From Leptolyngbya sp. SIO1E4 (GTDB lineage Bacteria > Cyanobacteriota > Cyanobacteriia > Phormidesmidales > Phormidesmidaceae): a stretch of DNA of 64,000 nucleotides. The stretch spans positions 496,001-560,000 of the forward strand of contig JAAHFU020000004.1 of assembly GCA_010672825.2 (NCBI GenBank), written 5' to 3'. Of this stretch, positions 7,118-62,445 are shown one piece after another. The position numbers and the translations under genes are program-made. Each line of letters opens with the position of its first letter. Within the stretch, counting starts at the first letter, position 1. The notes under the pieces are model-generated. The model saw nothing but the letters and a program-made list of their open reading frames with translations, did not search any database and had not been told where the DNA came from.

Positions 7118-7126
7118 ATTGCTACC

Positions 7127-9320: not shown

Positions 9321-9411
9321 GGGGTCTCCTTATTGAAGTGGACGTTCAAATCACAAATAGCGAAAGGGGCGTTGGCGTGATCGCGCCAACGACAGAACAG
9401 CTACAGAACAG

Positions 9412-11340: not shown

Positions 11341-11394
11341 AAATCGTCTCCTTGTGGATGGTGGCCGGGGATAGGGGGTGAGGGAGTTGGCGGG

Positions 11395-33936: not shown

Positions 33937-35016
33937 CTAATGTCGGCAGGCTTCTACAGTCTGCCCGCTTTCACCCGCCACTGTTTGGTACTCAAACTCC
34001 CAGCAAGCTTCTGAAGTCTGGCGATATAGAATTGCGCTCGTTGCTCCAGGCGTGGTTAAAGAATTGAAAGCCAACCGATACTCGCCGTTTTCATTTTCCT
34101 CAAAATCCGTGATCAGCGTTGAGACAGGCTCACCATAGCTGCCCCCAAACGGGCTGGGTGTGCGCTGTGCCAGTGCATCAAAGGAGCCCAGTTCTATTTG
34201 CAGTCCAGGGTCAAAAGATCCGTGATGGCACCCCACAACATAAGGCGGGGTTTTGGTGGTGAAATGCACAAACCCGCCCTCTGGTAACTGGAGCGCATTA
34301 CATTCATCCAGGGCTTCAGCGGGTAGGTAACTCAGATCGCTGTATCGACCCCGTCCATAATAGTCGTCCCCTCCTTCACCGAAATAGACGGGAGTGCCGT
34401 CCAGGCCAAAGGCAATCGGGAGTTCAGGATTATGCTCATCCATCAAACAAACTGGTGCGTAATGGTAGTGATAGTCTTCGCCTTGCCCGGCATGGCCGCC
34501 ACACTGGTCTAATTCGCCCTGAACAACGGTGTCATTACGCTGCTCGTAGTTCTCTAGCGACGTTGAAACATCCGGTCGGCGCTCGTAATGAAAAATGGGC
34601 ACCCCATCAACTGCCACCGCGATGGGGCCACGCGCGCTGGCTTCAATAGGTTCATCTAGCCAGGACGGGGAAAGGGGAATCCGCCAATCGTAATCGTAGG
34701 GAATCGGAACTCGTTGGATCCAGGTTGTGATGCCGACCATCGGGCGATCTTCGCGACTCCCAGACGTCAAATCAGGAAGACCTGTCGCGGTCACCTCAAG
34801 GAAGTCAGCCGTACAATTAACGGTCTCGGGATCGAGGTGTAGCTCAAAAGCCGCTTCATAGGGTGGGCAGTCTGTTGTAGTTGGCGAACGTTGCGCCAAA
34901 TTGATTGGCAAACTTTGCCCCACACTAGTGCAGCCCCAGATCAGAAGCACCATGGCGATCGTCAGCTTGGCTGCCCGCAAAGCCCGACGGATCTGTTTAT
35001 TGTGTTGCACTGGCAT
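33937..35016 (-). CDS. YHYH-domain secreted lipoprotein
   Basis: Starting at the ATG at 35016, which has AGGAG upstream, the 359-aa protein has a hydrophobic leader (LTIAMVLLIWGC) with a lipobox-like LIWGC. The YHYH domain (PF14240-type) spans roughly residues 100-270: EDYHYHYAPVCLM, FGLDGTPVYFGEGGDD, DECNALQLPEGGFVHFTT. The function of the YHYH family is unknown, but the His/Tyr motif may bind metal. The start lies within the 3' end of the CDF gene (20-base overlap), so the two are coupled. Confidence 0.85.
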   Translation of the reverse strand: MPVQHNKQIRRALRAAKLTIAMVLLIWGCTSVGQSLPINLAQRSPTTTDCPPYEAAFELHLDPETVNCTADFLEVTATGLPDLTSGSREDRPMVGITTWIQRVPIPYDYDWRIPLSPSWLDEPIEASARGPIAVAVDGVPIFHYERRPDVSTSLENYEQRNDTVVQGELDQCGGHAGQGEDYHYHYAPVCLMDEHNPELPIAFGLDGTPVYFGEGGDDYYGRGRYSDLSYLPAEALDECNALQLPEGGFVHFTTKTPPYVVGCHHGSFDPGLQIELGSFDALAQRTPSPFGGSYGEPVSTLITDFEENENGEYRLAFNSLTTPGATSAILYRQTSEACWEFEYQTVAGESGQTVEACRH

Positions 35017-36031
35017 TATCAATCTCCTGAGTACCAGGTACGGCTCTAACCACGGTTAAACCGAGATAAGGCACATGGGCTTTCAGTTGTTCTTCTACGG
35101 TATTCGTAATCGCTTGAGTTTCCTGCAGAGAAAGGTTAGGCGGTAGCCTCATGTCCATCGCCACATGGAGCCGATGCCCTAGCCAGCGAGTTCGCAGATT
35201 GGCGATACGGCCAACGCCACGCTCCGCGATCGCTTCAGCTTCAATTTCAGGCACATGACTGATGGCATGGTGGAGCGCGTCTAGTACCTCTGGTTCCACG
35301 CCATCGAGCAAGCGACTCAGAATCGTCTGTCCCGATTCCCAAACAATTTTGAGCAACACGGCTGCGATCGCTAAACCAATCACCGGATCAGCCCAGGAAT
35401 AGCCCAAACTAACACCTGCGGCACTGAGTAATACCGCCAGACTGACCAACCCATCTGCCATCGCGTGGTAGCCATCGGCTATCAGGGCCGCACTGTTGAT
35501 TTCCCGCCCTACCCGAACGCGGAAAACCGCCACAATTTCGTTACCGATGAAGCCGACGAAGCCAGCGATGGCTAAGGCTCCCAAATGATGCAGGGGCTGA
35601 GGATGGTAAAAGCGCTCTACAGACTCATAGGCAGTAATGATTGCACTCAACAAGATGATCGCCACAATCACGACCCCTGCCAAGTCTTCCAATCGAGCAA
35701 AGCCATAGGAAAATCTGGGTGTGGGCTTGCGTCGGGAGACTAGGAACGTCACACCCAAAGGCACGGCGGTCATGGCATCCCCGACGTTATGAATCATATC
35801 GGCCAGGAGAGCAACACTACCCGAAAGCCAAAATATCGCCGCCTGCATAATGGCCGTGAGCAGCAAGCCCACTAAAGACCATTTCACAGCCCAGATTCCT
35901 CGGGCAGAACTCGCGATTTCCGGGTCGATGACCCCGTGGGTATGGGTACAGTCGCCATGATGATGGGGGTGAGGCTCCACCTTGAGTCTGGTGAGTTGAG
36001 GCACATCAATAGAACTAAAAAGTTGTGTCAT
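34997..36031 (-). CDS. cation diffusion facilitator (zinc/cobalt-type exporter)
   Basis: The 344-aa protein has a His-rich N-terminus (HPHHHGDCTHTHG), about six membrane segments and both CDF metal-site patterns: LADMIHNVGDAMTA in TM2 and DGYHAMADGLVSLAV in TM5. The cytoplasmic C-terminal domain runs from ~250 (VLDALHHAISHVPEIE, LGHRLHVAMDMRLPP). It should export Zn, Co or similar divalent cations by proton antiport. It is translationally coupled to a YHYH lipoprotein. Confidence 0.93.
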   Translation of the reverse strand: MTQLFSSIDVPQLTRLKVEPHPHHHGDCTHTHGVIDPEIASSARGIWAVKWSLVGLLLTAIMQAAIFWLSGSVALLADMIHNVGDAMTAVPLGVTFLVSRRKPTPRFSYGFARLEDLAGVVIVAIILLSAIITAYESVERFYHPQPLHHLGALAIAGFVGFIGNEIVAVFRVRVGREINSAALIADGYHAMADGLVSLAVLLSAAGVSLGYSWADPVIGLAIAAVLLKIVWESGQTILSRLLDGVEPEVLDALHHAISHVPEIEAEAIAERGVGRIANLRTRWLGHRLHVAMDMRLPPNLSLQETQAITNTVEEQLKAHVPYLGLTVVRAVPGTQEIDNASATQ

Positions 36032-36131
36032 AGTACTTGTTGAAACAGGACATTCATCTAGGCGCTGTCATCCGGTAGCGGTCAAGTCATTATGTGGGGA
36101 GCGTTTCAGCCTGTCCGAGTAGGATCCCCCT

Positions 36132-37418
36132 TTATCGGTTGGGGCTCGGTGGCAGCGCCTCCCTCAAATCAGCTTCGTCAATACCTAACTCCCTGGCTAC
36201 TTCAAAGAGATCGGCCTGGCGTCCCCCAGCCGCTTGGATGGCCTGACTGAGCGCTGCTTCAGAGACGCCAAGTTGCGCTGCGGCCTCAGAAAAATCGGGT
36301 GCCGTATTCCCTTGAGGTGGACCGCCATCCTCAGACGGCCCACCAGAGGGTGGTGGGCCTGGCCGTGCCGACGGATCGGGCGTTCCCTTTACGCAGCGCT
36401 GCACGAAGGGGTAAGCGTCGGTCACGTAGTAGTGATAAATGCCTTGCGGGAATTCCGGCGTCACCGCAAAACGGCCATTACATTCGTCAAGGTCACCAGA
36501 CCCTTCAACATATTCATAGTCTTGGGAAAACGTACCCATGGGTATGAGGTCGACACTGGGACGATCCGGATCTGGCGTGGCTTTCAATTGATAGCTAGGT
36601 TCCATCGCCTGCAAGGCACTTGTGCTAGATTCGGGAGCGCTGTAGCCATACCGCGCATAGAGCGGAAACCCATCTACCGCCCAACCAATGAGCTGCATCG
36701 ATTCGCCAGCCAAATTCTGTTCCGATAGCATGCCTTCGGGCATACCGTGATAGTGATAGACCCCACCCCGCTGCACATGGGCGTGATTAGCATCTTCACC
36801 AAAGTCAAAGGTCGATTGGCCTAGCGCTTCCATTGTCCATTCCCCAGTGCTACCAGGTCTCAAACTGCACTCAGACACATCGGTGATATTGGAGGCACAC
36901 CGCCCACCCGTCCCAGGATTAAACTTCACCCCGTTCAGTGCATAGGCCGGGTTTATACTCCGCTGACCAGCGCCCGTATGCGCAACAGAATTCAGCGGCA
37001 TCGCGACATTAACTTCGTGGGCCGTAATGGGGTTACGCTCTCCCACGAACTGTGCATCCGTTTGATGATTCGGCACCCCATTGGCAACCAGCTGCCGCTG
37101 CCCATCAGCACAAGACCACTGGGCCTCACTTTGCAGACTCAATTGCTCGTTCAGCACATTGGTGCTGGCATCGCACAGGACGCCCGATGTGTCGGCCTCG
37201 GTGGATGCAATGGGTTCCCCTAAGTCACCTTCTGGCCGATCGCCCCCCGGCCTGCCTCCGGGGAAACCGCCTTCGGGTGGGCCACTTTCGGGCCTGCTTT
37301 GGGCCACTTCTTGAGTCAGGCTTTCGTGACCCTGCTGGGCCATCGGACTATGTAATCCGAATGCCAGCACCGCGATCGCAACGCCCAATGCAAGAGCGAT
37401 TAGTCCTACTTTTTTCAT
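36132..37418 (-). CDS. YHYH-domain secreted protein with C-terminal LGVSE repeats
   Basis: The ATG at 37418 opens with a signal peptide (KKVGLIALALGVAIAVLAFGL), giving 428 aa. A Gly/Pro/Glu-rich linker follows, then a YHYH domain with GGVYHYHGMPEGML, AVDGFPLYARYGYS and DECNGRFAVTPEFPQGIYHY. The last ~55 residues are two helical repeats (FSEAAAQLGVSEAALSQAI, LFEVARELGIDEADLREAL) also found four times in the protein at 38961. It is upstream of the CDF/YHYH pair on the same strand. Confidence 0.85.
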   Translation of the reverse strand: MKKVGLIALALGVAIAVLAFGLHSPMAQQGHESLTQEVAQSRPESGPPEGGFPGGRPGGDRPEGDLGEPIASTEADTSGVLCDASTNVLNEQLSLQSEAQWSCADGQRQLVANGVPNHQTDAQFVGERNPITAHEVNVAMPLNSVAHTGAGQRSINPAYALNGVKFNPGTGGRCASNITDVSECSLRPGSTGEWTMEALGQSTFDFGEDANHAHVQRGGVYHYHGMPEGMLSEQNLAGESMQLIGWAVDGFPLYARYGYSAPESSTSALQAMEPSYQLKATPDPDRPSVDLIPMGTFSQDYEYVEGSGDLDECNGRFAVTPEFPQGIYHYYVTDAYPFVQRCVKGTPDPSARPGPPPSGGPSEDGGPPQGNTAPDFSEAAAQLGVSEAALSQAIQAAGGRQADLFEVARELGIDEADLREALPPSPNR

Positions 37419-38152
37419 GGATATAGCTCCAGTCAAAGAAAACGCTAAATAGCGCAAATAAGCTTGTGTTTCATGAGTGATTTCCAGCCAAATTGTTAGC
37501 TATTTACACCGCTGCAAAGAGATTACTCAACTGTTTTTCTGGCCAGCGCTAAATTGTCCAAAACTAGATTAGAGGACCAGATAAACTGAGCATTAGCGCC
37601 GATAAAAACGTCGGAAAAATTGGTGTAGCTAGGTTTATTATTGACGCCAACCATTGCATTGGAATAGGTTATAGCCTGGGGTCAATCAGCGTCATTAAAA
37701 CTATCGGAAAACCAGTTTTTAGGAACTGGATAGTGCAGTGAATAGCAAGATTCATCACAGTTTGGATTTTCTGCATTAGCATCAGAAGAATCGTGCACAT
37801 TACCGACTTCTCTGACACTATCTGGTTTTAAGTACGTCGCCACAAATATCACTCATACTTTTCAGATCGCAGTGAAGCGAAGCGAAATCGAGATATCTCG
37901 GTGCATTGCGTGAGATTGAGATTTCTCCTTTCGGTCGAAATGACATCTTTGAAATACTTACGGCAACCTACTTGTCGACATGACCACCTTCCAGGTGTCT
38001 GCAACATGGCCCAAACGTTTTCTGCATCACTTAGGGGAGTTAGGTCCCGACTTTAACCAGGAAATGTCAGTGGAGGCAGAAGGCAAGAGCACTGGATTCT
38101 GTCTCCTGATTCCTTAATTAGCTGGAGTTTGCCGACTTAAACAGCCGCAGTT
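37419..38152. other. 734-nt gap with dispersed repeat sequence
   Basis: The 37868-37950 part (AGCGAAGCGAAATCGAGATA and GTCGAAATGAC) looks like a dispersed inverted repeat common in cyanobacterial genomes. A 45-codon plus-strand frame at 37980-38117 (starts MTTFQVSATWPKRFLHHLG) is possible but unsupported. The left part should contain the promoter of the YHYH gene. Confidence 0.4.
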
Positions 38153-38350
38153 TTAATTAATCACCCAGTAACCATGGTTACGCCAATATTGTTCTTGCAG
38201 GGCTGTGTCTAATTGGGCCGTTGTAATGTAGCCCTCGCGAACAAACAATCGGCCCAATGGCTTTATTTGCTGAGCCTGTAGGTGCAACGTCTCTTCTAGC
38301 TCTGAAACAGAAATGGCTCCTTGCTGGACTAGAATTTGTCCTAGTTTCAT
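38153..38350 (-). CDS. small MshEN/T2SSE-N-like domain protein
   Basis: The ATG at 38350 has GAGGGTG upstream and gives 65 aa: KLGQILVQQGAISVSELEET and LGRLFVREGYITTAQLDTAL with ALQEQ. This is the two-unit motif of MshEN-type domains found at the N-terminus of type II secretion and pilus ATPases, some of which bind cyclic-di-GMP. Here it stands alone. The frame extends upstream to 38512, but that part has no recognisable content. Confidence 0.7.
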   Translation of the reverse strand: MKLGQILVQQGAISVSELEETLHLQAQQIKPLGRLFVREGYITTAQLDTALQEQYWRNHGYWVIN

Positions 38351-38614
38351 GATTACACCCTCATGGCTGACAGGGATTGGTAATTTAACCTGTGTGATGA
38401 TCGCTGTCGGAGTGAGCCAATGGGCATCGGCTATCAGTGTCATCGTGATCATTCGGTCGTGATCACCATCAAAGGCTAGTGGTTTTATCTGTGGCGCGCT
38501 GTCGATGCCCATTGGCCGGTCCTTGAATTGTGATGCGGCGCTACCGTGACGCTCACCTGTGACTTTGTGCCTAATTCCAAAAGTGGTGAGTTAGGCCGAC
38601 AATCCTTTTGGGGT

Positions 38615-38893
38615 CTAAATTCGGATCTCAATGTCCAGGGAAACGTCGGAGGGTTCTGGTCTGTTGCTTTGGCGATTCTCGGTTTGTCTAACGGGTGGTT
38701 TAGGTGCTGGTTCCGGTACTGGCTGCGGTGGTACTGGTGGCCGCTGCACTCGTTGAGCGGTCACAACATGACGCGGTCTTTCTGCTTCGTCACGGGCTTG
38801 GGCGCTGGTAGCTGCAGTTGCGATAAAACCTGTGCAAGCAACACCGACTAATGTTGCGGACAAAAAGGCTCTGGCTGTTTGATTGAGTTTCAT
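38615..38893 (-). CDS. secreted Pro-rich small protein
   Basis: The 92-aa protein has a signal peptide (FLSATLVGVACTGFIATAAT then SAQA) and a mature part rich in Pro, Arg and Gln (RPPVPPQPVPEPAPKPPVRQ). An AGGAGT site lies before the ATG. No family recognised. It belongs to the group of secreted proteins next to the metal-type two-component system. Confidence 0.65.
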   Translation of the reverse strand: MKLNQTARAFLSATLVGVACTGFIATAATSAQARDEAERPRHVVTAQRVQRPPVPPQPVPEPAPKPPVRQTENRQSNRPEPSDVSLDIEIRI

Positions 38894-38960
38894 TTTTCAA
38901 CTCCTAAAGTTTGAAGTGTGATGTTTTGAACTTCTTTGCCAAGGGTTTAACCTGTAGTGC

Positions 38961-39539
38961 TTACTCAGGGCGATCGCCCTGTGGCGTAGGAATTCCTAAG
39001 GCGTCGATTAGCTGCACTTCGCTGACCCCTAGTTGACTGGCCGCACTAGCAATGTCTAGCTGGAGACGTTGCCTATCAGGGCTGTTGGCCGGAATCCCCA
39101 GGGCCGTTCTGAGGTCTGTTTCGGTCACCTCCAACTCAGCCGCCGCCGTCGCTAAATCGGGTCGCCCTCCCCGCATGGTCTGCCCGTCAGAGTCAGGCGA
39201 AACACCCAGAGCCGCCTGCAAATCCGCTTCGCTGACGCCTAGCTGGTTTGCCGCCGCCGCCAGGTCAGGTCGGGGACGCTCGGGCGGGGCTTCCGGCAAG
39301 CCTAGAGCGCCTTTTAGCTCCGCTTCGCTCGTGCCGAGCGTGGCGGCTGCCGCTGCAAAGTCAATGTGGTGGTGGCGGTGGCCCGGAGACCCCTCTGCGG
39401 GTTGAGGCGATGCTTGGGCAATCGCTGCAGACCGGGCTGAATCAGGCTGCTGGGTACTGCTGAGACCGGCGTGGCCCAGTAGGCCTAGCGTCGCTACTGA
39501 AGCAAATACGGCCGCGTAGTGTGATCGGCTGAATTTCAT
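38961..39539 (-). CDS. secreted His-containing protein with four LGVSE helical repeats
   Basis: The 192-aa protein has a signal peptide (YAAVFASVATLGLLGHAGL) and a HRHHH cluster before four repeats of about 40 residues: FAAAAATLGTSEAELKGALG, LAAAANQLGVSEADLQAALG, LATAAAELEVTETDLRTALG and IASAASQLGVSEVQLIDALG, separated by Pro-rich linkers. The repeats are amphipathic helix pairs of unknown function. Divergent from the two-component system, it is a good candidate for a target of that system. Confidence 0.8.
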   Translation of the reverse strand: MKFSRSHYAAVFASVATLGLLGHAGLSSTQQPDSARSAAIAQASPQPAEGSPGHRHHHIDFAAAAATLGTSEAELKGALGLPEAPPERPRPDLAAAANQLGVSEADLQAALGVSPDSDGQTMRGGRPDLATAAAELEVTETDLRTALGIPANSPDRQRLQLDIASAASQLGVSEVQLIDALGIPTPQGDRPE

Positions 39540-39724
39540 GGTGAGTTATCTCCAAGTCAGGTTAGTTAAGGGGTTAAGCCCGAACTGTTTCTATTAAGCA
39601 GGTCAAAAATTACAGCACGGCCCTGCTTTGAATTACAGTTTTGTAATCCGGATACGGTTGAGCTTTTGGTGCCTAAGCTTTGTAATTTAAGAAAGTCGCT
39701 AGGGCCTGAGCCACCGATTGAGCG

Positions 39725-40408
39725 ATGCGCGTTTTGTTTGTAGAAGACGAACCCAAAATTGCTAACTTTGTTCGAACTGGCCTAGCAGAGCAGGGATTTG
39801 TCGTGGATTACTGTGAAAACGGCAACGAGGCGCTAGCGCTAGCGTTAGATCAAGATTACGACGTGTTAGTGCTCGACATTATGGTGCCGGGAAAAGACGG
39901 ACTAGCGATTCTTAAACAGCTACGACAGTCTGGACGGAGCACGCCCGTAATTTTGGTGACGGCCCGCGGTGAGCTAGACGACCGACTAACGGGGCTCAAC
40001 CTGGGGGCCGATGACTACATCACCAAACCCTTTTTTGTCGAAGAGTTGGTGGCTCGCATCCACGCGGTAGTGCGGCGTAGCGTGGGTGAACGACAGAATC
40101 TGCTGACAGTGGCAGATCTAAAGCTAGACCGGATTACCCGCGAGGTGAGCTGTCAGGGACACACGATAGAGCTGACCACGCGCGAGTTTAACTTGCTGGA
40201 ATATCTAATGCGATCGCCCGGTCGCGTTTTCACCCGGACTCAAATTCTAGAGCACGTATGGGGCTATGACTTCAACCCTGGCACCAACGTGGTAGACGTG
40301 TGCATTCAGCGGCTGCGTAAGAAAATTGACGGCGCGGGTGAGCCTAGCCACATTGAGAATGTGCGCGGTGTCGGCTATCGGTTTCGGGCGTCTGAGGCAG
40401 CGCCGTGA
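39725..40408 (+). CDS. OmpR/PhoB-family response regulator
   Basis: The 227-aa protein has a receiver domain with the acidic pocket (VEDEP) and phospho-acceptor Asp51 (LVLDIMVPGKDG), Thr/Lys switch residues (VTARG, ITKPF), then a winged-helix domain from ~130 ending with the VGYRF motif. It is close to the QseB/CopR/CusR group that answers to metals or envelope stress. It overlaps the kinase gene by 4 bases (GTGA). Confidence 0.95.
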   Translation: MRVLFVEDEPKIANFVRTGLAEQGFVVDYCENGNEALALALDQDYDVLVLDIMVPGKDGLAILKQLRQSGRSTPVILVTARGELDDRLTGLNLGADDYITKPFFVEELVARIHAVVRRSVGERQNLLTVADLKLDRITREVSCQGHTIELTTREFNLLEYLMRSPGRVFTRTQILEHVWGYDFNPGTNVVDVCIQRLRKKIDGAGEPSHIENVRGVGYRFRASEAAP

Positions 40409-41838
40409 AACGATCTTTTCGGCTGCGTCTGGCCCTGCTGTCTACGGTGCTGGCCGGTGCGGCCCTGGTTGGGTTCAGTGGCTTGGCTTGGCGACTGATA
40501 TACACCGCTAAAATTAACCAATTGGACACTCGCTTAGAGAGTGAGATTGAGCGTTTTGCGAGGCCGCTGCCCGCTACCGATAGCTCGCGCAACCGGGAAA
40601 CCGATCTGGCACGTGATCTGGAGACCGAACCGGGTAATGCGATCGCACTACAAATTCTCGATGCCCAGGGCGATCGCTTTTACCAGTCAGAGAGCTGGGA
40701 TTCTGCGTTCAATCGGCCTAATTTGTATCCACCCCGTCCGACGCTATCACCCTCACAAGACTCACCCCCAACCGGCGACGGTATCCGTCGCCCCCCGCCA
40801 CCCCCCAACCGGCGACTGCGCCTGATGACGTTACGCACAGCTGATGTCAGTTGGCGAGTGGGGGCGGCTAGCTTTCCTACTCATCAAGTGGCGATCGCCA
40901 TCAGTCTGCAGGGGCTCCGCCAAGACATGGCTGTTATCCGCAACACCTTCTTCATTACCATTCCCTCTGTCTTGCTGCTGGTGGCGATCGGGGCCTGGGC
41001 GCTGTCGGGCAGTGCCCTCTGTTCGGTCCGTCAGCTCACAGCGACGATGCAGCAGGTCACCGCCACTGACCTCAACCAGCGCGTTTCTTTGACCGATGTG
41101 GACATTGAATTTACCGCCCTAATCGAGGTGTTTAACCGGATGCTAGCGCGGCTAGAGCGCAGCTTTATGCAGGCTTCTCGCTTCAGTGCCGACGCTGCCC
41201 ACGAACTCAAAACGCCCCTTGCCGTTCTGCAAGGCGAACTCGAACAGGGTTTGCAGCAGGCCGAAACGGGGTCCCCGCTGCAGCAAACCTTGAGTAGTTT
41301 CCTCGAAGAAGTCCGTCGCCTCAGCGGCATTGTCCGTAAACTACTGCTACTCGCGCAGGCTGATGCTGGCCAGATGAACCTGAACAAAGAGTCGATTAAC
41401 CTTTCGGCACTGCTCACCGTCTTGGTGGAGGATTTGGACCTGCTTGCCGATGACCTTTCGATTCAAGCTGACATTGCTCCCCATCTTGGTGTTCAAGGCG
41501 ATCCAGATTTAATGGCTCAGGTACTGCAAAACCTCACCAGCAACGCAGTCAAATATAACCTTTCCAATGGATGGGTTCGTATCGAGGCCAGACAGCGGCC
41601 GGGGCAAGTTCAAATTACCGTCGCGAATGCCTCTTACCCATTGGCAACAGCCGAGCGCGATCGCATCTTTGATCGCTTTTACCGAGGCGACCCCGCCCGC
41701 ACTCGTAAAGTAGATGGCCTCGGTCTAGGACTCAGCCTTTCCCAAGAGATTGTTCGGGCTCATCAAGGCACGCTGATTCTAGCTGATACGTGTGGCCATC
41801 AAACCGTTTTTATCCTATGTCTGCCCACTGTTGTATGA
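40405..41838 (+). CDS. sensor histidine kinase, heavy-metal-sensor type
   Basis: The 477-aa kinase (GTG start) has two membrane segments (LALLSTVLAGAALVGFSGLA and TFFITIPSVLLLVAIGAWAL) around a ~150-residue periplasmic domain, a HAMP linker, a HisKA domain with phospho-acceptor His266 (DAAHELKTPLAVLQGELE), and an HATPase domain (NLTSNAVKYN, GLGLGLSLSQEIV). The periplasmic part has a Pro-rich strip (RPPPPPNRR). With the adjacent regulator it probably senses a metal or envelope signal. Confidence 0.93.
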   Translation: MKRSFRLRLALLSTVLAGAALVGFSGLAWRLIYTAKINQLDTRLESEIERFARPLPATDSSRNRETDLARDLETEPGNAIALQILDAQGDRFYQSESWDSAFNRPNLYPPRPTLSPSQDSPPTGDGIRRPPPPPNRRLRLMTLRTADVSWRVGAASFPTHQVAIAISLQGLRQDMAVIRNTFFITIPSVLLLVAIGAWALSGSALCSVRQLTATMQQVTATDLNQRVSLTDVDIEFTALIEVFNRMLARLERSFMQASRFSADAAHELKTPLAVLQGELEQGLQQAETGSPLQQTLSSFLEEVRRLSGIVRKLLLLAQADAGQMNLNKESINLSALLTVLVEDLDLLADDLSIQADIAPHLGVQGDPDLMAQVLQNLTSNAVKYNLSNGWVRIEARQRPGQVQITVANASYPLATAERDRIFDRFYRGDPARTRKVDGLGLGLSLSQEIVRAHQGTLILADTCGHQTVFILCLPTVV

Positions 41839-51691: not shown

Positions 51692-52314
51692 TATTTAGTC
51701 GCGAAAGGAGCGACCATCGTGGCGTTTTCTTCGGATCGGACACTGCGAGCCATGTTGGAGCAGCTCCCATCGATGGATCAGCCCCAACATAAGATTGTTT
51801 CAATCGTGGGTAACATGTCGCACTATGGCCGAGTGGGGGGCATGAAGTCGTCATCCATCTGTGCGATCCGGCCTATCCGGTACCTACGCCGGTTGTCGCG
51901 ACCAGTGTTGAAGAGCGCCAGCTGCTGCAAACACAGCGATCGTTTATTGCTGTCAAATCTTTGGCCGAGCAGGCTAAGGTCACCTTTGTTGGCATCGGTG
52001 AAATTGGGTGGAATGCGCCTCTCCACGAAAGTGGTTTTATTAACGATCAAGAAATCACTGAACTTATCGAACTGGGTGCGATCGGAGAAATTGCCGGATG
52101 GGCTTACGACCAACAGGGCGTGTTGCTTCAAGCCGGGACCAATCAACGGCTGGCTGGAGTGCCACTGGAACAGCCCGTTGAGCGCCTGACGATTGGCGTC
52201 GCCGGTGGATTACACAAAGCGGAGGCAATTCTAGCGGCACTCAATGGCCAGCTAATTAACGGGCTGATCACGGATGAATCCGTGGCTGAAGCGATTCTTC
52301 AGATAAACGGCTGA
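51692..52314 (+). pseudogene. broken partial duplicate of the SorC-type regulator gene
   Basis: This segment repeats bases 49768-50392 of the regulator gene at over 90% identity, covering the C-terminal two thirds. It has no HTH part, a 12-base deletion (loss of about RTGA), and six instead of seven G's near 51834, which shifts the frame after GNMSHYGRVGG. The C-terminal part stays open (AEQAKVTFVGIGEIGWN to ILQING). The last bases overlap the 3' end of the NrsS-like kinase gene. Confidence 0.92.
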
Positions 52315-53675
52315 GCAAGGGGGAGATGAATTTTGAATAAGCTGCCTTGACCTACTTCACTCTCAACGGTGAGCTGCCCATGGTGGCGATGGGCAATGAC
52401 CCGAGCAATGGCCAATCCTAAGCCTGTGCCGCCAGTTTTGCGAGAGCGATCGCTGTTGACTCGGTAGAAACGTTCAAAAATGCGGCTTTGCTCACTGACT
52501 GGAATACCGATGCCCGTATCTTTGACAGTGATGATAGCGCTGCGATCATGGGCTCCCAAGCTCACGAGCACGGATCCGCCAGAAGGCGTATGCTGAATGG
52601 CATTGGCCATCAAGTTAGAAACGAGTCGATAGAGCTGGGATTCATGCCCCGAGAAGTCTATCGCTGTCTCCGGCACCTGGCTGCTGAGGTGGATATCCGA
52701 GGTGGCGGCTAATTCAGCAAACTCCTCAGTAAGATCCGCAACAATATCATTCAGACAGCAGGGTTGGGGCGGCTTGGATGAAGTATCTTGCTCCAAGCTC
52801 GTAAGTAACAGTAAATCAGCCACTAATTGACTCAAGCGACGTCCCTGTCGTTCAACAGTTTGGAGCATAGAAGGCACCTGCTCCTGTTGTGCGTGGGATA
52901 AGCGGAGCATCGCTTCTACCGTTGCGAGTAGGCTAGCGAGGGGCGATCTCAACTCATGGGCGGCATTGGCAGTGAACTGCTGCTGCCGCTGATAGGACTG
53001 ATAAATCGGCTGCATCGCCAGACCCGAGAGCCACCAACTCGAAATGGCAATCAATCCCAACGCCAGAGGCAGCCCTCCAATCAGAATCCATCGCAGCCGC
53101 CGAAGTTCGGCATCAAAGGTAGCAAGGGTGCGCCCCACCTGCAGGTAGCCCCAGGAGGGATGCTCGTGCAGTTCTTCACCGGGAGCATGGGCGTGGGCGC
53201 TATGAATGATGGTGGTGAACTGGCGGTAGCGGTTGCCGTCTTCAGTCTGAAGGGTTTGCCAGGTAGTGAGATTGAGGCTGGCTGGCTGCGGTTCTGGCTG
53301 GTTAGGCGAAAAGGCCAACAGGTTGCCTTGATTGTCGAATAGGCGAATGTAGTAGGTGGAGCGATCGCTAATCCCTGTTGTATGACGTTGAATCAGGGAT
53401 GGATTTGGCTCACAGGGCTGCTCTACTAAGCAAAGGTCGGGAAAAATCTGCTGCAACACGGAGGTTGGATCTTCTGAAGGAGGCAGCATTGGTTCCAGAC
53501 TGTCGTGCAGTGTTCCGGCAATGGACTCAATTTCTCGCTCCAGTGCTCCCCAGTTGGCCTGAATCAGTGCACGGGCCATCCCCAAACCTAACAGGCTCAA
53601 AATGCCGCCCATCACTAAGGCATACCAACCTGCTAAGCGCATACGGCTGCGGCGAAAAAGTTTTTGGCTATTCAT
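52299..53675 (-). CDS. nrsS: sensor histidine kinase, NrsS/RppB-like
   Basis: The 458-aa kinase has two membrane segments (LAGWYALVMGGILSLLGLGM, WILIGGLPLALGLIAISSWW) around a ~150-residue periplasmic domain containing HSAHAHAPGEELHEHP, a possible metal site. HisKA carries phospho-acceptor His240 (NAAHELRSPLASLLATVE), and the HATPase domain has NLMANAIQHTP, DTGIGIP and GGTGLGLAIARVIAHRH. It overlaps the regulator gene by 4 bases. Cyanobacterial NrsS senses nickel. The stop codon lies in the junction with the duplicated SorC segment. Confidence 0.88.
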   Translation of the reverse strand: MNSQKLFRRSRMRLAGWYALVMGGILSLLGLGMARALIQANWGALEREIESIAGTLHDSLEPMLPPSEDPTSVLQQIFPDLCLVEQPCEPNPSLIQRHTTGISDRSTYYIRLFDNQGNLLAFSPNQPEPQPASLNLTTWQTLQTEDGNRYRQFTTIIHSAHAHAPGEELHEHPSWGYLQVGRTLATFDAELRRLRWILIGGLPLALGLIAISSWWLSGLAMQPIYQSYQRQQQFTANAAHELRSPLASLLATVEAMLRLSHAQQEQVPSMLQTVERQGRRLSQLVADLLLLTSLEQDTSSKPPQPCCLNDIVADLTEEFAELAATSDIHLSSQVPETAIDFSGHESQLYRLVSNLMANAIQHTPSGGSVLVSLGAHDRSAIITVKDTGIGIPVSEQSRIFERFYRVNSDRSRKTGGTGLGLAIARVIAHRHHGQLTVESEVGQGSLFKIHLPLAQPFI

Positions 53676-54367
53676 GGCGATGTCTTGAAACGATATCCCT
53701 GTCCGGCGACGGTCTCAATGGGGCAGTTGCAACCATAGCGGGCAAACTTGCGACGTAGCAGGCGAATCTGAGCCGCCACCACATTGCTCACGGGTTCTTC
53801 GTCCAAGTCCCACAGTTGGGAGCGGAGCTTGCTACCAGGAATGATGCGATCGCAGTTTTCCATCAGGTAAGCCAACACCTGAAACTCTTTCAAGGTGAGG
53901 GGAATCTCTAGGGTAGGCTGATCGGGCAGCTCAACCTGTAGCTGAGTATTAGCGTCATCCAGAGTGAAGGCCCCTACGGTCAACTGTTTGGGTTTTAATT
54001 GGGGCGATCGCCGCTGCAAGGCTCGCAGTCGCGCCAGCAACTCCTCCATCACAAAGGGTTTGACCAGATAATCATCGGCTCCCGCATCCAGGCCAGTGAT
54101 GCGATTGTCCGGTTGTCCCAAAGCGGTCAGCATCAGCACCGGCAGGGGGTTTTGGCGCGATCGTAGTCGCTGGCATAATTCCAGCCCTGATATCTCCGGC
54201 AGCAGCCAGTCAAAGATAGCCACGGTGTAGTCTGTCCACTGACTCTCCAGGCAGTGCCATGCCTGAGCCCCATCAGTGACCCAGTCCACCACATACTTTT
54301 CACCGATGAGCACTTGCTTGATGGCTAGCCCCAAGTCTTCTTCGTCTTCTACTAACAGGACGCGCAT
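53672..54367 (-). CDS. nrsR: OmpR-family response regulator, NrsR/RppA-like
   Basis: The 231-aa regulator has a receiver with VEDEED, phospho-acceptor Asp53 (VAIFDWLLPEISG) and the LKPF-type switch Lys (DDYLVKPFVMEE), then a winged helix with FQVLAYLMENCDRIIPGSKL and the GQGYRF ending. It is divergent from the adaptor/RND genes, the same arrangement as the nickel-responsive nrs system of Synechocystis. It likely activates the efflux operon. Confidence 0.9.
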   Translation of the reverse strand: MRVLLVEDEEDLGLAIKQVLIGEKYVVDWVTDGAQAWHCLESQWTDYTVAIFDWLLPEISGLELCQRLRSRQNPLPVLMLTALGQPDNRITGLDAGADDYLVKPFVMEELLARLRALQRRSPQLKPKQLTVGAFTLDDANTQLQVELPDQPTLEIPLTLKEFQVLAYLMENCDRIIPGSKLRSQLWDLDEEPVSNVVAAQIRLLRRKFARYGCNCPIETVAGQGYRFKTSP

Positions 54368-54489
54368 TCCACTCTGAGCGTCAACTACGAAGCTGATTCT
54401 ACCGAAGTCACCAACATTTCATCTGAATTTCACCTGCTCTGTGACACCCTTTGGGCAACTGTGTTTTGTAGGAACTGTGAGGAGGTACG

Positions 54490-55140
54490 ATGAAACGCTT
54501 GCCATTGTTGAGTTCTGTCCTGGCTATTAGCCTTGCGATGGGTACCCCCGCCGCCCTGGCCCATGTTGGTCATGGCGATGAGTTTCAGGCTGAAGGGGGG
54601 GTGAACCGGGTTGAGGTTAATGCTGAAACGGATGCACTGCTGGGAATTCAAGTTAGCCCCATTGAGGCGGCGACCGATGGCAGTGGTGTGGTGCTGATTC
54701 CTGTTTCGGCACTTGTAGATGACAATGATCGGCAACTGGTGTTTGTGGAATACGAGAACTTCTACGAGCCAGTCGATGTTGTGACAGGGACGACTCAAGG
54801 TGAGTTGATTGAAATCCTGGAAGGTTTATCCGTAGGCGAGCAACTGGTGACTCAGGGGAGTCTGTCACTCTATGCGGAATCGCGCAAAACCCAAACCACT
54901 GAAGCTGCTTCTGAGACTCCTGAAACAGCGTCTAGCGAGGCCGAAACGGCGGCTTCTACCTCAGAGGCAGTCCAAGAGCCAATGGCTGAATCGAGTGAAA
55001 CGGTTGAAACCTCCCCAGAAACCGCTGAGGCATCGGGTGGTTTTCCGGTGGGCCTCGTAGCGGCTATCGGTACTGGCGCAGCTGTGGTGATTGGGGCAGG
55101 GGTTGTTTTGAGCAGTGGCAACAAGAAGGGAAATTTATAA
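54490..55140 (+). CDS. short periplasmic adaptor-like protein of the RND efflux operon
   Basis: The 216-aa protein has a signal peptide (LSSVLAISLAMGTPAALA) and the mature start HVGHGDEFQAEGG, then a C-terminal-adaptor-like domain (VVLIPVSALVDDNDRQLVFV, GLSVGEQLVTQGSLSLYAE). An Ala/Glu/Ser/Thr-rich linker leads to a C-terminal membrane segment (GLVAAIGTGAAVVIGAGVVL). Full membrane fusion proteins are ~400 aa and contain barrel-sandwich and hairpin domains, which are missing here. It lies 5 nt before the RND gene. Confidence 0.75.
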   Translation: MKRLPLLSSVLAISLAMGTPAALAHVGHGDEFQAEGGVNRVEVNAETDALLGIQVSPIEAATDGSGVVLIPVSALVDDNDRQLVFVEYENFYEPVDVVTGTTQGELIEILEGLSVGEQLVTQGSLSLYAESRKTQTTEAASETPETASSEAETAASTSEAVQEPMAESSETVETSPETAEASGGFPVGLVAAIGTGAAVVIGAGVVLSSGNKKGNL

Positions 55141-55145
55141 GTTAA

Positions 55146-58100
55146 ATGCTGAACGCGCTTCTGAATCAGATTCTTAAAAATTCCATTACTCAACGGTGGT
55201 TGATTGTGGCGGCTGCAATCGTGGTCACGATTTGGGGCATCTTCAGCGTCACCCAAATGCCGCTGGACGTGTTTCCACCCTTCGCCCCACCCCAGGTAGA
55301 TATTCAGGTTGAAGCCGTGGGACTCGCCCCGGAAGAGGTGGAAACCCAGATTACTGTGCCCATCGAAAGTTCGGTGAATGGCCTGCCCGGAGTGACGACG
55401 GTGCGATCGTCCTCCAAAGTGGGTCTGTCGATGGTCAGCGTCGTGTTCGCTCAGGATGCTGACATCTACCAGGCCCGACAGGCCGTGACCGAGCGACTGC
55501 AACAGGTCACCAGTCAACTCCCCGAAAATGCCCACCCGCCAGAGATCTCACCGCTGGTGTCGCCGTTGGGCACCATCTTGCAATATGCCTTCACCGTGGA
55601 TGGGCAGGGGCAGACTTCCCTAATGGATCTGCGCCGTCTGGTGGACGTCACCCTGAAAAACCAGATTCTTTCGGTGCCGGGCGTGTCTCAAGTCACCCTT
55701 TACGGCGGCGACGAACGGCAAGAACAAGTGCTGGTGGACCCTGAGCGGTTGCAAGACCTCGATGTTTCCCTCAATGAAGTGACGGCAGCAGCAGCCGGAG
55801 CGAATGCCAACGCCCCAGGCGGTTTCCTGATTGGGGGTGGTCAAGAACTGCTGGTGCGTGGCCTGGGGCAGATGCAGTCCATTGAGGATTTGCAGCGATC
55901 GGTGGTGAAAGTGCAGGACGGTCAGCCCATTCTGCTGCGGGATGTGGCGACGGTGCAGACCGGAGCCGCCCTGAAGCGAGGTGATGCTAGCCTGAATGGT
56001 CAGCCAGCCGTGGTGCTGATGATTAACAAGCAGCCGGAAGTGGATACGCCCACCGTCACCGATGCTGTGGAAGCTGTGATTGCCGATTTGCGGGTCACCT
56101 TCCCAGCCGATGTGCAGGTGACCCGCACCTTCCGGCAGGCCAACTTCATTGATTCTGCCATTCGCAATGTCAGCGGCTCCTTGCTCCAGGGTGTGGTGAT
56201 TGTGTCGGTCATCTTGCTGCTGTTTTTGATGAACTGGCGCACGGCGATCATTACCCTTAGCGCCATTCCCCTGTCGCTGCTGATTGGCCTGCTGTTCATG
56301 AAAGCCTTTGGTCTGGGCATCAACACCATGACCTTGGGAGGGCTAGTGGTTGCTATCGGGTCTGTGGTGGATGATGCGATTGTGGATATGGAAAACTGCT
56401 ATCGCGGTCTGCGGACGAATCAGGCCCAAGGCAAACCGAAGCATCCTTTCCAGGTCGTGTATGACACCTCATTACAGGTGCGACTGGCGGTGATTTTTTC
56501 CACGGTAATTATTGTCGTGGTGTTCGCCCCTATATTTAGCCTGACCGGAGTAGAAGGCCGTATTTTTGCCCCGATGGGACTGGCTTATTTGTTCTCGATT
56601 CTGGCCTCAACTCTAGTGGCGATGACCCTGTCCCCCGCCCTCTGTGCGATTCTGCTGGCAAATCAAAATTTGCCTCAAGAAGGCACCTTCGTATCGCGGT
56701 TAGCGGAGCGGATTTATCGTCCACTGCTGGGGCTGTCCATGCGGGCACCGCAGCTCATACTCAGTTTGGCTTTGGTGGCTCTGGTGGCTTCAGCGGCAGT
56801 TGTCCCCTCACTGGGTCGGGTCTTTCTGCCGGAGTTTCAGGAGAAATCCCTGGTGAACTCGATGGTGTTGTTTCCCGGCATTTCCCTGGACATCACCAGA
56901 GGCGCAGGCAATGCCCTAGCCAACTCCCTCAAGGACAATCCCCTGTATGAGTGGGTGCAGGTGCGGGCTGGACGTTCCCCTGGCGATGCTGATGGGGCCG
57001 GCGTCAACATGGCCCACGTTGATATCGAACTCAGCGACGAAGCGTTAAAAGACCGAGAAGCCAGTGTCCAGAAACTGCGATCAGCCTTCCTAGAACTTCC
57101 AGGAGTGGCTCCCAATATAGGGGGATTCATTTCCCACCGTATGGATGAGGTGCTGTCGGGGGTGCGGAGTGCGGTCGCCATCAAAATCTTCGGTCCCGAC
57201 CTGGCAGAACTGCGAAGCATTGGTGAGCAGGTGCGCGATACCATCGAACCCATCGAGGGTGTGGTGGATTTGCAACTGGAACCCCAACTCCCCATCCGTC
57301 AGGTGCAGATTCAGTACGACCGGGAAGCGGCAGCGGGCTACGGCCTGACAATGGCTCAGATCTCCGAGATCGTGGAAACGGCTCTGAATGGTCGCATCGT
57401 CTCCCAGGTACCGGAAGATCAGCAGTTGGTGGACATTATCGTGGCGTTGCCAGAGGCAGCCCGCAATAGCCTGGATGCCATTAGCGCTATTCCGATTACC
57501 ACACCCACTGGTGAGTTGATTACTTTGGGAAATGTTGCCGATGTTGGTTATGGCATGGGGGCCAACGTGGTCAATCGGGAAGATGTGTCCCGCCTGATTG
57601 TGGTGTCGGCAAACGTGGCTGAGCGAGATTTGGGCAGCGTCGTCGGTGACATTCAGACTCAGATTCGGGAGACTGTGCAATTACCTAATGGCTACTTCAT
57701 TCAGTATGGGGGACAGTTTGAGGCCGAGCAAAACGCCACCAATAATCTGCTGGTGTACAGCATCCTGGCGGCGATCGCGATCGCGGTGCTGATGTTTTTC
57801 TCTGTCAAATCCTTGCCTGCGACCGTGGCGATCATGATTAACCTGCCCTTGGCCTTGGTGGGCGGTATTGTCTCCATTCTGTTGACTGGTGGCGTGATGT
57901 CGGTAGCCTCCCTCATCGGCTTCATCACCCTGTTTGGAGTGGCTGTCCGCAATGGGCTGCTGTTGGTGGATAACTACAACACCAAGTTTGTTGAGGGCTT
58001 GCCGCTGAAGAAAGCGGTGTTCCACGGTTCTCTGGAACGGGTGAATGCCATTCTTATGACGGCTCTTACCTCGGCTCTGGGGATGCTGCCATTGGCGATC

Positions 58101-58313
58101 TCCAGCGGTGCGGGCAACGAAATCCTACAGCCCCTGGCGATCGTGGTGTTAGGGGGGTTATTCACCTCCACAGCGCTCACGCTGTTGGTGATTCCAGCCC
58201 TCTATGCCAAGTTTGGTCGGTGGTTCATGCTGAAGCCCCCTCGAACTGACGTGGAGGTTGCATTGACAGCGAATGGGGCACCCAGGTCTACCACATTTAC
58301 AGGCCATAACTGA
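55146..58313 (+). CDS. RND heavy-metal efflux pump (CzcA/NrsA-type)
   Basis: The 1055-aa pump has the RND layout: TM1 (WLIVAAAIVVTIWGIFSVTQ), periplasmic loop 1, TM2-6 with VVAIGSVVDDAIVDMENCYR, a second loop, and TM8-12 with FFSVKSLPATVAIMINLPL and GVAVRNGLLLVDNYN. The acidic residues in the TM4 motif (VVDDAIVDMEN) fit the heavy-metal subgroup. It would pump Ni, Co or Zn out of the periplasm by proton antiport. Substrate is inferred from the NrsRS-like and CoaR-like neighbours. Confidence 0.93.
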   Translation: MLNALLNQILKNSITQRWLIVAAAIVVTIWGIFSVTQMPLDVFPPFAPPQVDIQVEAVGLAPEEVETQITVPIESSVNGLPGVTTVRSSSKVGLSMVSVVFAQDADIYQARQAVTERLQQVTSQLPENAHPPEISPLVSPLGTILQYAFTVDGQGQTSLMDLRRLVDVTLKNQILSVPGVSQVTLYGGDERQEQVLVDPERLQDLDVSLNEVTAAAAGANANAPGGFLIGGGQELLVRGLGQMQSIEDLQRSVVKVQDGQPILLRDVATVQTGAALKRGDASLNGQPAVVLMINKQPEVDTPTVTDAVEAVIADLRVTFPADVQVTRTFRQANFIDSAIRNVSGSLLQGVVIVSVILLLFLMNWRTAIITLSAIPLSLLIGLLFMKAFGLGINTMTLGGLVVAIGSVVDDAIVDMENCYRGLRTNQAQGKPKHPFQVVYDTSLQVRLAVIFSTVIIVVVFAPIFSLTGVEGRIFAPMGLAYLFSILASTLVAMTLSPALCAILLANQNLPQEGTFVSRLAERIYRPLLGLSMRAPQLILSLALVALVASAAVVPSLGRVFLPEFQEKSLVNSMVLFPGISLDITRGAGNALANSLKDNPLYEWVQVRAGRSPGDADGAGVNMAHVDIELSDEALKDREASVQKLRSAFLELPGVAPNIGGFISHRMDEVLSGVRSAVAIKIFGPDLAELRSIGEQVRDTIEPIEGVVDLQLEPQLPIRQVQIQYDREAAAGYGLTMAQISEIVETALNGRIVSQVPEDQQLVDIIVALPEAARNSLDAISAIPITTPTGELITLGNVADVGYGMGANVVNREDVSRLIVVSANVAERDLGSVVGDIQTQIRETVQLPNGYFIQYGGQFEAEQNATNNLLVYSILAAIAIAVLMFFSVKSLPATVAIMINLPLALVGGIVSILLTGGVMSVASLIGFITLFGVAVRNGLLLVDNYNTKFVEGLPLKKAVFHGSLERVNAILMTALTSALGMLPLAISSGAGNEILQPLAIVVLGGLFTSTALTLLVIPALYAKFGRWFMLKPPRTDVEVALTANGAPRSTTFTGHN

Positions 58314-59766: not shown

Positions 59767-61128
59767 ATGTTTTCAATGCCGCGCTTATTCCAATGCCTGA
59801 GAAATCCTATCTTTGCTCGTCTCTACTTAGCGCAGACGATTAACCTGATTGGTGATGCCTTCACCTGGTTAGGCTTGGCGCTATTAGCTTTTGAGCTAGC
59901 GGGGGAGAAAGCCGGAGTCATTTTGTCTGGGGCACTCACCCTGCGAGTCACTGCCTATGTCGTACTGTCGCCACTGGCAGGCGTGATCGCCGACCGCGTT
60001 AACCGCAAACGCATCATGGCCGTGACCCATTTGGCACGAATGGTCATCGTGTGTCTATTGCCCTTCGTCACTCAGCCCTGGCAAATTTACGCGATTGTAT
60101 TTGCCCTTAATGTGTGCTCTGCCTTTTTTAAGCCGACGTATACGGCCACGATTCCCTTAGTGGCCACTCAAGATGAATATCCCATTGCGATCGCCCTTTC
60201 AAGTGCTACCTACCAGCTCCTAGGGGTTTTAGGGCCTGGTCTCGCTGGAGGTGTTGCCGCCTTTATCGGTACCCGACAGGTGTTTTTCTTGGATAGCATC
60301 ACGTTTCTGATGGCGGCTATTTTGGTACTTACTCTGCCGCCGCAACGGATGATGGTTCCCACTCAGCAGGAGACTAAAACTGTTCGTCGCACATGGCAGG
60401 ATGCTCGTACCGGAACAACCTGTCTGTTCAGTGACCCCTTAATTCGGTATGCCTTGGGAATGCAACTTGTCGCCGCGATCGCAGGGGCCGCTATCCTGGT
60501 CAATACAGTGGGTTATGTCCAAGGCACCCTTCAACTTGGCAAGCTTGAATATGGCTGGGCCATGGCCGCTTTTGGCATTGGTGCAACCCTGGCATCCCTC
60601 GGTTTGGGTACTTTAGTCAACCAGAAGCGCAAACAGACAGCGTTCATCAGCCTCGGGGCGGCTCTGATTACACTGGCTCTCTTGCCTGCCAATTGGGTCA
60701 GCTTAGGTGGGTTACTACTGTTGTGGTCAGTGGCCGGTGTAGGACAGACCTTTGTCAATGTTCCGACGCAGACATTAATCGCTGATCGGGTTGCCGTTGA
60801 GGCCCAAGGGCGAGTTTATGGTGCCCACTTTGCATGGAGTCATCTGTGGTGGGCCTTCTCCTATCCCCTAGCAGGATGGCTGGGAAGCCATTTACCGACG
60901 TCTGCTTTTTGGGGTAGCAGCCTGATTGGTGCTGTGATTCTGGGTGTGGCTCATCTAGTTTTCCAAGCCAAACAACAGTCTGGTTTGAAAAGTGGACTGT
61001 GGCATGAGCACGAACATACCCACGATGAACAGCATCAGCACCAGCATGGTTATTGGCTAGGTCTAGCTGGAATGAACTCCCATAGCCACTTACACTTCCA
61101 TCACGCCCAACAGTCAGAATGCTCTTGA
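59767..61128 (+). CDS. MFS nickel/cobalt exporter, NreB/NrsD-like, with His-rich tail
   Basis: The 453-aa transporter has about 12 membrane segments and the motif-A region GVIADRVNRKRIMAVTHLAR after TM2, as in NreB-type exporters (start RNPIFARLYLAQTINLIGDA). The C-terminal ~45 residues contain many His (WHEHEHTHDEQHQHQHGYW, SHSHLHFHHAQQSECS), a known trait of NreB/NrsD nickel exporters. It should export Ni and perhaps Co. The start ATG follows the operator region by ~115 nt. Confidence 0.9.
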   Translation: MFSMPRLFQCLRNPIFARLYLAQTINLIGDAFTWLGLALLAFELAGEKAGVILSGALTLRVTAYVVLSPLAGVIADRVNRKRIMAVTHLARMVIVCLLPFVTQPWQIYAIVFALNVCSAFFKPTYTATIPLVATQDEYPIAIALSSATYQLLGVLGPGLAGGVAAFIGTRQVFFLDSITFLMAAILVLTLPPQRMMVPTQQETKTVRRTWQDARTGTTCLFSDPLIRYALGMQLVAAIAGAAILVNTVGYVQGTLQLGKLEYGWAMAAFGIGATLASLGLGTLVNQKRKQTAFISLGAALITLALLPANWVSLGGLLLLWSVAGVGQTFVNVPTQTLIADRVAVEAQGRVYGAHFAWSHLWWAFSYPLAGWLGSHLPTSAFWGSSLIGAVILGVAHLVFQAKQQSGLKSGLWHEHEHTHDEQHQHQHGYWLGLAGMNSHSHLHFHHAQQSECS

Positions 61129-62378: not shown

Positions 62379-62380
62379 AG

Positions 62381-62414
62381 CCTTGACTTTAACATCAATG
62401 TCAAGGTTTATTCT
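62381..62414 (+). promoter_or_regulatory. coaT promoter with 20-bp spacer and CoaR operator
   Basis: The inverted repeat CCTTGAC / GTCAAGG (62381-62387 and 62400-62406) contains a TTGACT -35 box (62383-62388). A TATTCT -10-like box (62409-62414) follows after a 20-bp spacer. Long spacers are the rule for MerR-activated promoters, and 20 bp matches what is known for coaT. Confidence 0.8.
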
Positions 62415-62445
62415 GGTGCCCCTGACACAATGAACTTCGGTTGGC

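Follow-up and report, generated by a model that had tools for sequence, protein, structure and literature searches.

YHYH proteins of a Leptolyngbya genome lie where two conserved gene units meet and may take part in periplasmic metal handling

Results

Gene content of the cluster

We analyzed a 64,000-nucleotide stretch of the genome of Leptolyngbya sp. SIO1E4 (positions 496,001 to 560,000 of contig JAAHFU020000004.1; hereafter, the window). Within it, we focused on two proteins of the YHYH family (PF14240), YHYH1 and YHYH2, which are encoded close to a CDF-family cation exporter, a repeat protein that we call REP, and a two-component system (TCS). The window lies on the contig labeled C4 of an 8.2-Mb genome, labeled G000. 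A sequence-only reading had placed these genes in one possible metal-handling module. All of them were confirmed at their positions, but they represent two conserved units that have come together in this lineage, and not one module. The minus strand is transcribed in the order REP, a small Pro-rich protein, an MshE-N-like protein, YHYH1, CDF, and YHYH2, and the response regulator (RR) and histidine kinase (HK) genes run divergently from position 39725. The Pro-rich and MshE-N-like genes were absent from the sequence-only reading.

YHYH1 (36132-37418, minus strand) is predicted to be secreted and matched PF14240 with 211 bits (curated cut-off, 25 bits). Its start is likelier to be the ATG at 37418, behind a GGAG, than the TTG at 37457 chosen by the open reading frame (ORF) tool. 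The CDF gene (34997-36031, minus strand) scored 189 bits with TIGR01297 (cut-off, 82) and 136 bits with PF01545 (cut-off, 26.6), and its product has a His-rich N-terminus (PHPHHHGDCTHTHG) and HxxxD motifs at residues 81 and 189, a pattern that we take to suggest a Zn-type site. YHYH2 (33937-35016, minus strand), also predicted to be secreted, retains the His/Asp residues described below and matched only positions 2-109 of the PF14240 profile (53 bits). For this gene, we preferred the ATG at 35016, behind an AGGAG, to the TTG at 35022 given by the ORF tool. Since this AGGAG-preceded start overlaps the end of the CDF gene (34997) by 20 nt, translational coupling of the two genes, as previously proposed, is plausible. 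Whether YHYH2 is a lipoprotein, as had also been proposed, is uncertain, the candidate lipobox being LIWGC with Trp at −2.

Upstream of YHYH1 lie the gene for a small protein with an MshE-N-like domain predicted to bind c-di-GMP (38153-38512, probable start ATG 38350, minus strand; NF053729, 52.2 bits against a cut-off of 38) and that for the small secreted Pro-rich protein (38615-38893, minus strand). The Pro-rich gene is found upstream of YHYH1 in all three relatives that have a close YHYH1 together with upstream DNA (loci L018, L070, and L128), and DNA matching the MshE-N-like gene is also upstream of YHYH1 in L018. REP (38961-39539, minus strand), recognized by its repeat pattern and its pairing with a TCS in relatives, is a predicted secreted protein with four repeats of ~20 residues. 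Between REP and the RR gene lies the palindrome TTACANNNNTGTAA (39633-39646), a candidate response-regulator box. The OmpR-family RR (39725-40408) and the sensor HK (40405-41838) are encoded on the plus strand. Heavy-metal (CusR/CzcR) families gave the best scores for both, as in the sequence-only reading, but these scores were under the curated cut-offs (RR, TIGR01387, 254 versus 279 bits; HK, TIGR01386, 258 versus 293 bits).

Distribution and conserved residues of YHYH proteins

Apart from YHYH1 and YHYH2, no YHYH match was found in the genome. YHYH was present in 6 of the 386 genomes of our phylum sample, the window's genome included, and free YHYH proteins are rare in cyanobacteria. The YHYH1 alignment comprised 53 members. 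In a separate residue check on 17 aligned members, two of them the window proteins and one a truncated frame, the residues D222, H227, H235, H237, and C326 (YHYH1 numbering) were identical in all 17, and D262 in 16.

Phage YHYH domains have a conserved His triad and Asp, on which a jumbo-phage review bases the prediction of a Zn-binding, tail-associated, metal-dependent hydrolase (PMC7824862). The His/Asp residues conserved in YHYH1 and YHYH2 agree with this predicted Zn site. The window proteins share the family (by the curated cut-off) and the His triad plus Asp with phage tail proteins, but they are free secreted proteins with a transporter neighbor rather than baseplate components. Separately, 458 phage records matched YHYH1, nearly all of them cyanophages by name, and the 20 listed of these 458 bear structural, baseplate, or hypothetical-protein annotations. 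PF14240 transcripts have been reported from diatoms. No tested activity of any YHYH protein was found in the literature searched.

An anglerase-like partner of YHYH1 relatives

YHYH neighborhoods were read at the best 80 of 552 confirmed YHYH1 relatives, which carry 35 organism labels in a scan of genome contigs. These labels were taken from record titles, ORFs were called with a simple longest-frame rule, and the 80 loci represent the nearest subfamily of YHYH1 rather than all YHYH proteins. The protein beside YHYH in a Deinococcus plasmid served as a probe and had homologues in 65 loci, the plasmid included. From 45 of these homologues, all taken from YHYH neighbors, we built a profile (the Ang profile). 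Adjacency meant that a gene lay directly downstream of YHYH, on the same strand, at a distance of ≤300 bp. By this profile, an anglerase-like (Ang-like) gene adjoins YHYH in 69 of the 80 loci, with records from Alpha-, Beta-, Gamma-, and Deltaproteobacteria, Archangium, Deinococcales, and Gemmatimonadetes. The Ang frame spans ≤330 aa in 45 of these 69 loci (one clipped by a contig end) and is longer in 24, which were scored as fusions with a HupE/UreJ-2 permease (PF13795), as confirmed by Pfam on two loci, L012 and L020.

Because the profile had been trained on YHYH neighbors, we also ran a position-blind search in 20 of the 80 genomes, with adjacency to YHYH read from two match tables. Twenty-one matches started in profile positions 1-16, which correspond to the Ang domain, and 20 of them adjoined YHYH; the sole exception was a second copy in a Deinococcales genome (G451). 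Three further matches, starting at positions 59, 80, and 92, covered a partial Ang domain and were not beside YHYH. The remaining matches covered mainly the permease part.

The partner is a secreted domain of ~150 residues with an EF-hand-like loop, the first Asp of which is invariant (45/45), and a His stands right after the Ala of the cleavage site, predicted by eye, in 44 of 45 partners. A structural model of one member (mean predicted local distance difference test score, pLDDT, 91.6) aligned with Cu-bound Ang-1 (9GCE) at Z 11.1 (139 residues aligned; root-mean-square deviation, 3.9), with Zn-bound ZrgA of Vibrio cholerae (8F1B/8EZW) at Z 10.9, and with PA4063 at Z 10.0, the last two at ~10% identity, versus Z 6.0 for the next unrelated entry. 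The partner of YHYH1 relatives is accordingly predicted to have the Ang-1/ZrgA fold, clearly above the next entry. When the partner alignment was searched against a library of solved structures, the best 60 of 285 matches were mainly EF-hand proteins, and 9GCE was not among the matches listed.

According to the anglerase report (PMC12537917, Nat Commun Oct 2025), RbAng-1a binds Cu2+ (Kd 74 nM) and Ni2+ (220 nM), and the commonest neighbors of Ang-1 are of unknown function. The term "YHYH" is absent from the main text of that paper, and we found no report in the literature searched that connects YHYH with HupE or anglerases. The YHYH-linked partners resemble the Ang-1/HupE-UreJ-2 anglerases in predicted fold, in the His after the signal peptide, and in the permease at 24 of 69 loci, but they are mostly standalone and have the EF-hand-like loop. 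The window's genome had no match to PF13795, the permease of the anglerase/HupE systems. No Ang-like gene was seen in the neighborhood of YHYH1 in the window, the genome as a whole not having been searched with the Ang profile. There, CDF occupies the place after YHYH1 where the Ang partner sits in most relatives.

A second candidate partner of YHYH is a secreted domain that is annotated as "PEBP family protein" in plasmid records and has no Pfam match. It was found beside YHYH in two Rhodobacterales plasmids (L011 6074-9495 and L014 6214-7840) and in a cyanobacterial relative, G394 (L128 7628-8650). More distant YHYH genes on Rhodobacterales plasmids have other neighbors, and it is YHYH2-like genes that the PEBP-annotated proteins accompany in the two plasmids.

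REP, its repeat, and the two-component system

The repeat unit AA.LGVSEA.L..AL occurs in four copies in REP and two at the C-terminus of YHYH1 (AAAQLGVSEAALSQAI and VARELGIDEADLREAL; 36147-36300, minus strand), which bears out the shared repeat previously noted. Three REP copies fit the strict pattern, and the fourth, AAAELEVTETDLRTAL, is divergent and was read by eye. A search of the whole genome with REP returned only REP itself and the YHYH1 C-terminus (E 6e-5) at E ≤ 0.001. Fusions of YHYH with an LGVSE-type repeat were found in four Rhodobacterales plasmids (Loktanella, Limimaricola, Marinovum, in two annotated frames, and Pseudooceanicola), so the fusion is old or repeatedly made and not a local accident of this genome. 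REP itself had no match in plasmids.

The description of REP as His-rich was an overstatement. Among its 192 residues, the window protein has 6 His, 4 of which fall within one HRHHH stretch, and REP of 22 relatives has 1-7 His in 128-326 residues (some clipped by contig ends). The longest His/Arg run in these relatives is 4, and mostly 1-2; HRHHH is not conserved. A metal-binding role of REP is unsupported by these His-poor relatives, and REP was the weakest part of the earlier argument for metal handling.

In a sample of 63 genomes from the same family as the window's, REP was found in 23. For the 22 other than the window's genome, we tallied whether REP accompanies an RR-HK pair homologous to that of the window (>250 bits). 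G423 and G435, where a contig end lies beside REP, were set aside. REP was divergent from such a pair in 17 of the 20 assessable relatives, in all cases on opposite strands; G410, G426, and G416 were scored as lacking the TCS, the last after its flank had been read. At two of these TCS-less loci (L149 267-1142 and L140 8015-8869), REP is adjacent to a membrane protein (…RQASM(R/K)…LSLCxWLPMAPAxAYDNP), relatives of which sit just beyond HK where other genomes carry REP, as though the TCS had dropped out.

With a strict cut of the intergenic region, 15 of 18 loci, including the window, show the box T[TG]ACANNNNTGTAA in the promoter region shared by REP and RR. At the other three (L134, L139, and L154), the box is present in a wider cut, where the called RR frame overlaps it. 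The window box is a perfect palindrome, and its 16-base form, TTACANNNNTGTAATT, is present a single time genome-wide. The consensus presumably resembles the CusR box. Across the window, five sites with ≤1 mismatch were found versus 1.0 expected. One of them, a weak match with one mismatch, lies upstream of YHYH1 (37504-37517) and may be due to chance. As it is not kept in L018, L070, or L128, we did not use it as evidence.

Gene order in cyanobacterial relatives

The order YHYH1-CDF-YHYH2 recurs in one relative only, G394 (L128). The genes there are arranged as small, PEBP-like, YHYH1, CDF, YHYH2, an opposed regulator-kinase pair, a further YHYH, and an HlyD-MacB-ABC exporter. Nodosilinea (L018) has YHYH1 and YHYH2 without an intervening CDF; its YHYH2 is shorter, and a 68% CDF homologue is on another contig. 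G386 carries a 68% CDF homologue, with no YHYH gene in the 15 kb of its sequence that we analyzed. In two relatives (L130 and L133), YHYH2 appears to be shortened or split; the homologue in the second (G442; L133 9255-10221) is split over two frames and may be decaying.

In Oscillatoria CS-180 (L070), HlyD-MacB-ABC comes after YHYH1; beyond it, in convergent orientation, are the closest homologues of the window's TCS (RR, 97% identity; HK, 86%). An identical 14-base box occurs twice at this locus, before RR and before small-FHA-YHYH1. REP is missing, and a copy of its promoter is joined directly to the small gene: at the junction, sequence matching window position 39530 is followed by 3 bases and then by sequence matching 38903. 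This arrangement can be read as a duplication with loss of REP. The second box is the strongest indication that the YHYH1 operon can come under the control of the TCS, which is plausible from the sequence of this one relative. The HlyD-MacB-ABC exporter was considered as a further cluster member; it is beside YHYH in G394 and CS-180, and as the five MacB matches in the window's genome are distant (30-43% identical) and located elsewhere, we did not include it in the window cluster.

Other features in and near the window

Eleven kilobases from the cluster, 52299-58313 might be a metal-efflux unit. Here, a second TCS (HK 52299-53675; RR 53672-54367) is divergent from a secreted AHVGHG... protein without a Pfam match (54490) and an AcrB/CusA-type RND pump (55146-58313). 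The gene at 59767-61128 encodes an MFS transporter whose C-terminal tail is long and His-rich (HEHEHTHDEQHQHQHG...). A MerR-CbiC fusion regulator, presumably like the cobalt sensor CoaR, is encoded at 61281-62447. Running divergently from it is a short P-type ATPase frame (62446-63354), for which Pfam returned only the E1-E2 domain, and an ABC-3 family permease (63471) follows, the region extending to 63998. At the other end of the window, 1-12797 holds contractile-injection-like genes (sheath, tube, spike, and baseplate-like), judged by eye. Beyond the window (L158 10694-12494; G000:C4 ~568.7-570.5 kb), there are several small precursor-like peptides with PFFARYLE leaders and KxPSD-type tails, which we take to resemble microviridin-type graspetides, some kb from frames with weak ABC-transporter and HlyD matches.

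Discussion

Two units rather than one module

The sequence-only reading had joined the YHYH, CDF, REP, and TCS genes in one possible module and had suggested co-occurrence across genomes as a check. The outcome of that check was mixed. The pairing of REP with the TCS is conserved, and no YHYH gene was found in any of the 22 REP stretches. YHYH was present in 7 of the 63 family genomes and both YHYH and REP in 2, no more than expected by chance (Fisher p = 1). Only one of the 22 other REP genomes, G424, has YHYH, and there it is on a different contig. REP was accordingly rejected as a general part of a YHYH module. Because REP and YHYH co-occur no more often than by chance, REP and the TCS are kept together, and YHYH1-CDF-YHYH2 recurs in one relative, we conclude that two conserved units meet here in a lineage-specific manner.

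Unit 2 (REP-RR-HK) would consist of a TCS and a divergent secreted accessory protein. Such an arrangement is known from CpxP-CpxRA and ZraP-ZraSR, in which a secreted accessory protein is encoded divergently from the TCS with a shared promoter region. REP is comparable in its divergence from the TCS and in sharing a promoter region with it, but it has four LGVSE repeats and no match to LTXXQ in Pfam at E up to 0.1, and its accessory role is putative. With heavy-metal systems such as CusRS and CopRS, the TCS shares the best-scoring family, but not scores at the cut-offs. The box at the REP promoter would reach into unit 1 in at least one relative, CS-180.

A periplasmic metal-handling role for YHYH proteins

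Unit 1 (YHYH1-CDF-YHYH2) may form a periplasmic transition-metal module. CDF would export a metal from the cytosol, probably Zn2+ and possibly Co2+ or Cd2+. Secreted YHYH1 and YHYH2 would then bind the metal in the periplasm or envelope through the cluster of D222, H227, H235, H237, and D262, so as to buffer it, hand it over, or export it onward. Among the closest non-cyanobacterial relatives, most might fulfill the same role with YHYH and the Ang-like domain, sometimes on a HupE/UreJ-2 permease, so that the transporter partner would change while YHYH stays. ZrgA belongs to an ABC zinc-uptake system. We take Zn2+ as the first candidate because of the CDF motif and ZrgA; Cu2+ or Ni2+ come next because of Ang-1 and what we take to be a CusR-like box. 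Overall, the conserved residues and the partner's metal-binding fold incline us, by a small margin, toward a role of YHYH proteins in periplasmic transition-metal handling, in concert with a transporter. The metal-handling part of the sequence-only reading is thereby retained for YHYH, by way of its partner.

Several observations weigh against this view. The independence of REP and YHYH described above is one of them. CDF was seen beside YHYH only in the window and one relative, and the Ang partner was missing from 11 of 80 loci, namely all three cyanobacterial loci of the scan (L018, L019, and L070) and eight others. These exceptions include L094, where the contig ends, L025 and L030, where the next gene resembles a divergent member by eye, and Leucothrix, which has an Ang-YHYH pair elsewhere in its genome (G464:C12). 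The kinase does not have a His-rich sensor, with one His in residues 1-185. TCS genes were within 2 kb at 13 of 80 YHYH loci versus 3 of 50 control genes (p = 0.10), and within 2.5 kb at 17 of 80 versus 3 of 29 controls (p = 0.27); this enrichment is weak and not significant, and TCS linkage was dropped as a general feature of YHYH loci. Of five YHYH-neighboring TCSs that were scanned, four were BaeSR-like, below the BaeSR cut-offs, and the fifth, beside the YHYH without Ang in Leucothrix, passed the heavy-metal cut-offs. Finally, the YHYH1 model was of moderate quality (mean pLDDT 71) and had no Foldseek match in the PDB at E ≤ 0.001, because of which the predicted metal site cannot be seen; at this pLDDT, we make no claim of a new fold.

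The main rival explanation, which we consider rather unlikely, is that YHYH proteins are metal-dependent envelope hydrolases, with CDF or Ang-HupE neighbors supplying or regulating the metal cofactor. It would account for the published Zn-binding hydrolase prediction, the residues of which are conserved here, and for the annotations of the phage matches, and an envelope function would suit the nearby MshE-N-like c-di-GMP protein. On the other hand, the search for a tested YHYH activity came back empty, and the metal-binding fold of the near-constant partner, often on a permease, suits handling as well as metallation. The YHYH-Ang pairing itself holds whichever of the two is true.

It is somewhat less probable still that the juxtaposition is a chance or transient one, in which REP-TCS is an envelope-stress unit with no specificity for metals, YHYH1 and YHYH2 were gained independently, and CDF works as an ordinary exporter. 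The independence of REP and YHYH in the family, the scarcity of YHYH in the phylum, the CDF homologue without YHYH in G386, and the shortened or split YHYH2 genes would all fit. Set against these are the retention of YHYH1-CDF-YHYH2 in G394 and of small-YHYH1 in three relatives, and the arrangement in CS-180, where the TCS and its box accompany YHYH1 and a REP promoter copy is joined to the small gene. An adhesive role, with YHYH as a carbohydrate- or surface-binding domain and the repeats and neighbors serving surface attachment, might explain the PEBP-annotated secreted proteins by YHYH2-like genes in two Rhodobacterales plasmids. We consider it very improbable, as it leaves unexplained why YHYH is paired at 69 of 80 loci with a domain whose fold is a metal-binding one.

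Returning to metal handling, a broader and more tentative proposal, on which we would not yet rely, is that YHYH and Ang-like domains constitute a widespread, unrecognized two-component system for periplasmic metal capture and relay. The N-terminal His of Ang would pass the metal to or from the His cluster of YHYH, and the membrane partner would be modular: HupE/UreJ-2, none, or, as here, CDF with a second YHYH.

The recognition of two units instead of one shows which genes belong together in tests. For YHYH, a family widespread in bacteria and phages, a near-constant neighbor of metal-binding fold provides a specific and inexpensive hypothesis of function. As the commonest neighbors of Ang-1 are, according to the anglerase report, of unknown function (PMC12537917), YHYH and the anglerases may each explain part of the other.

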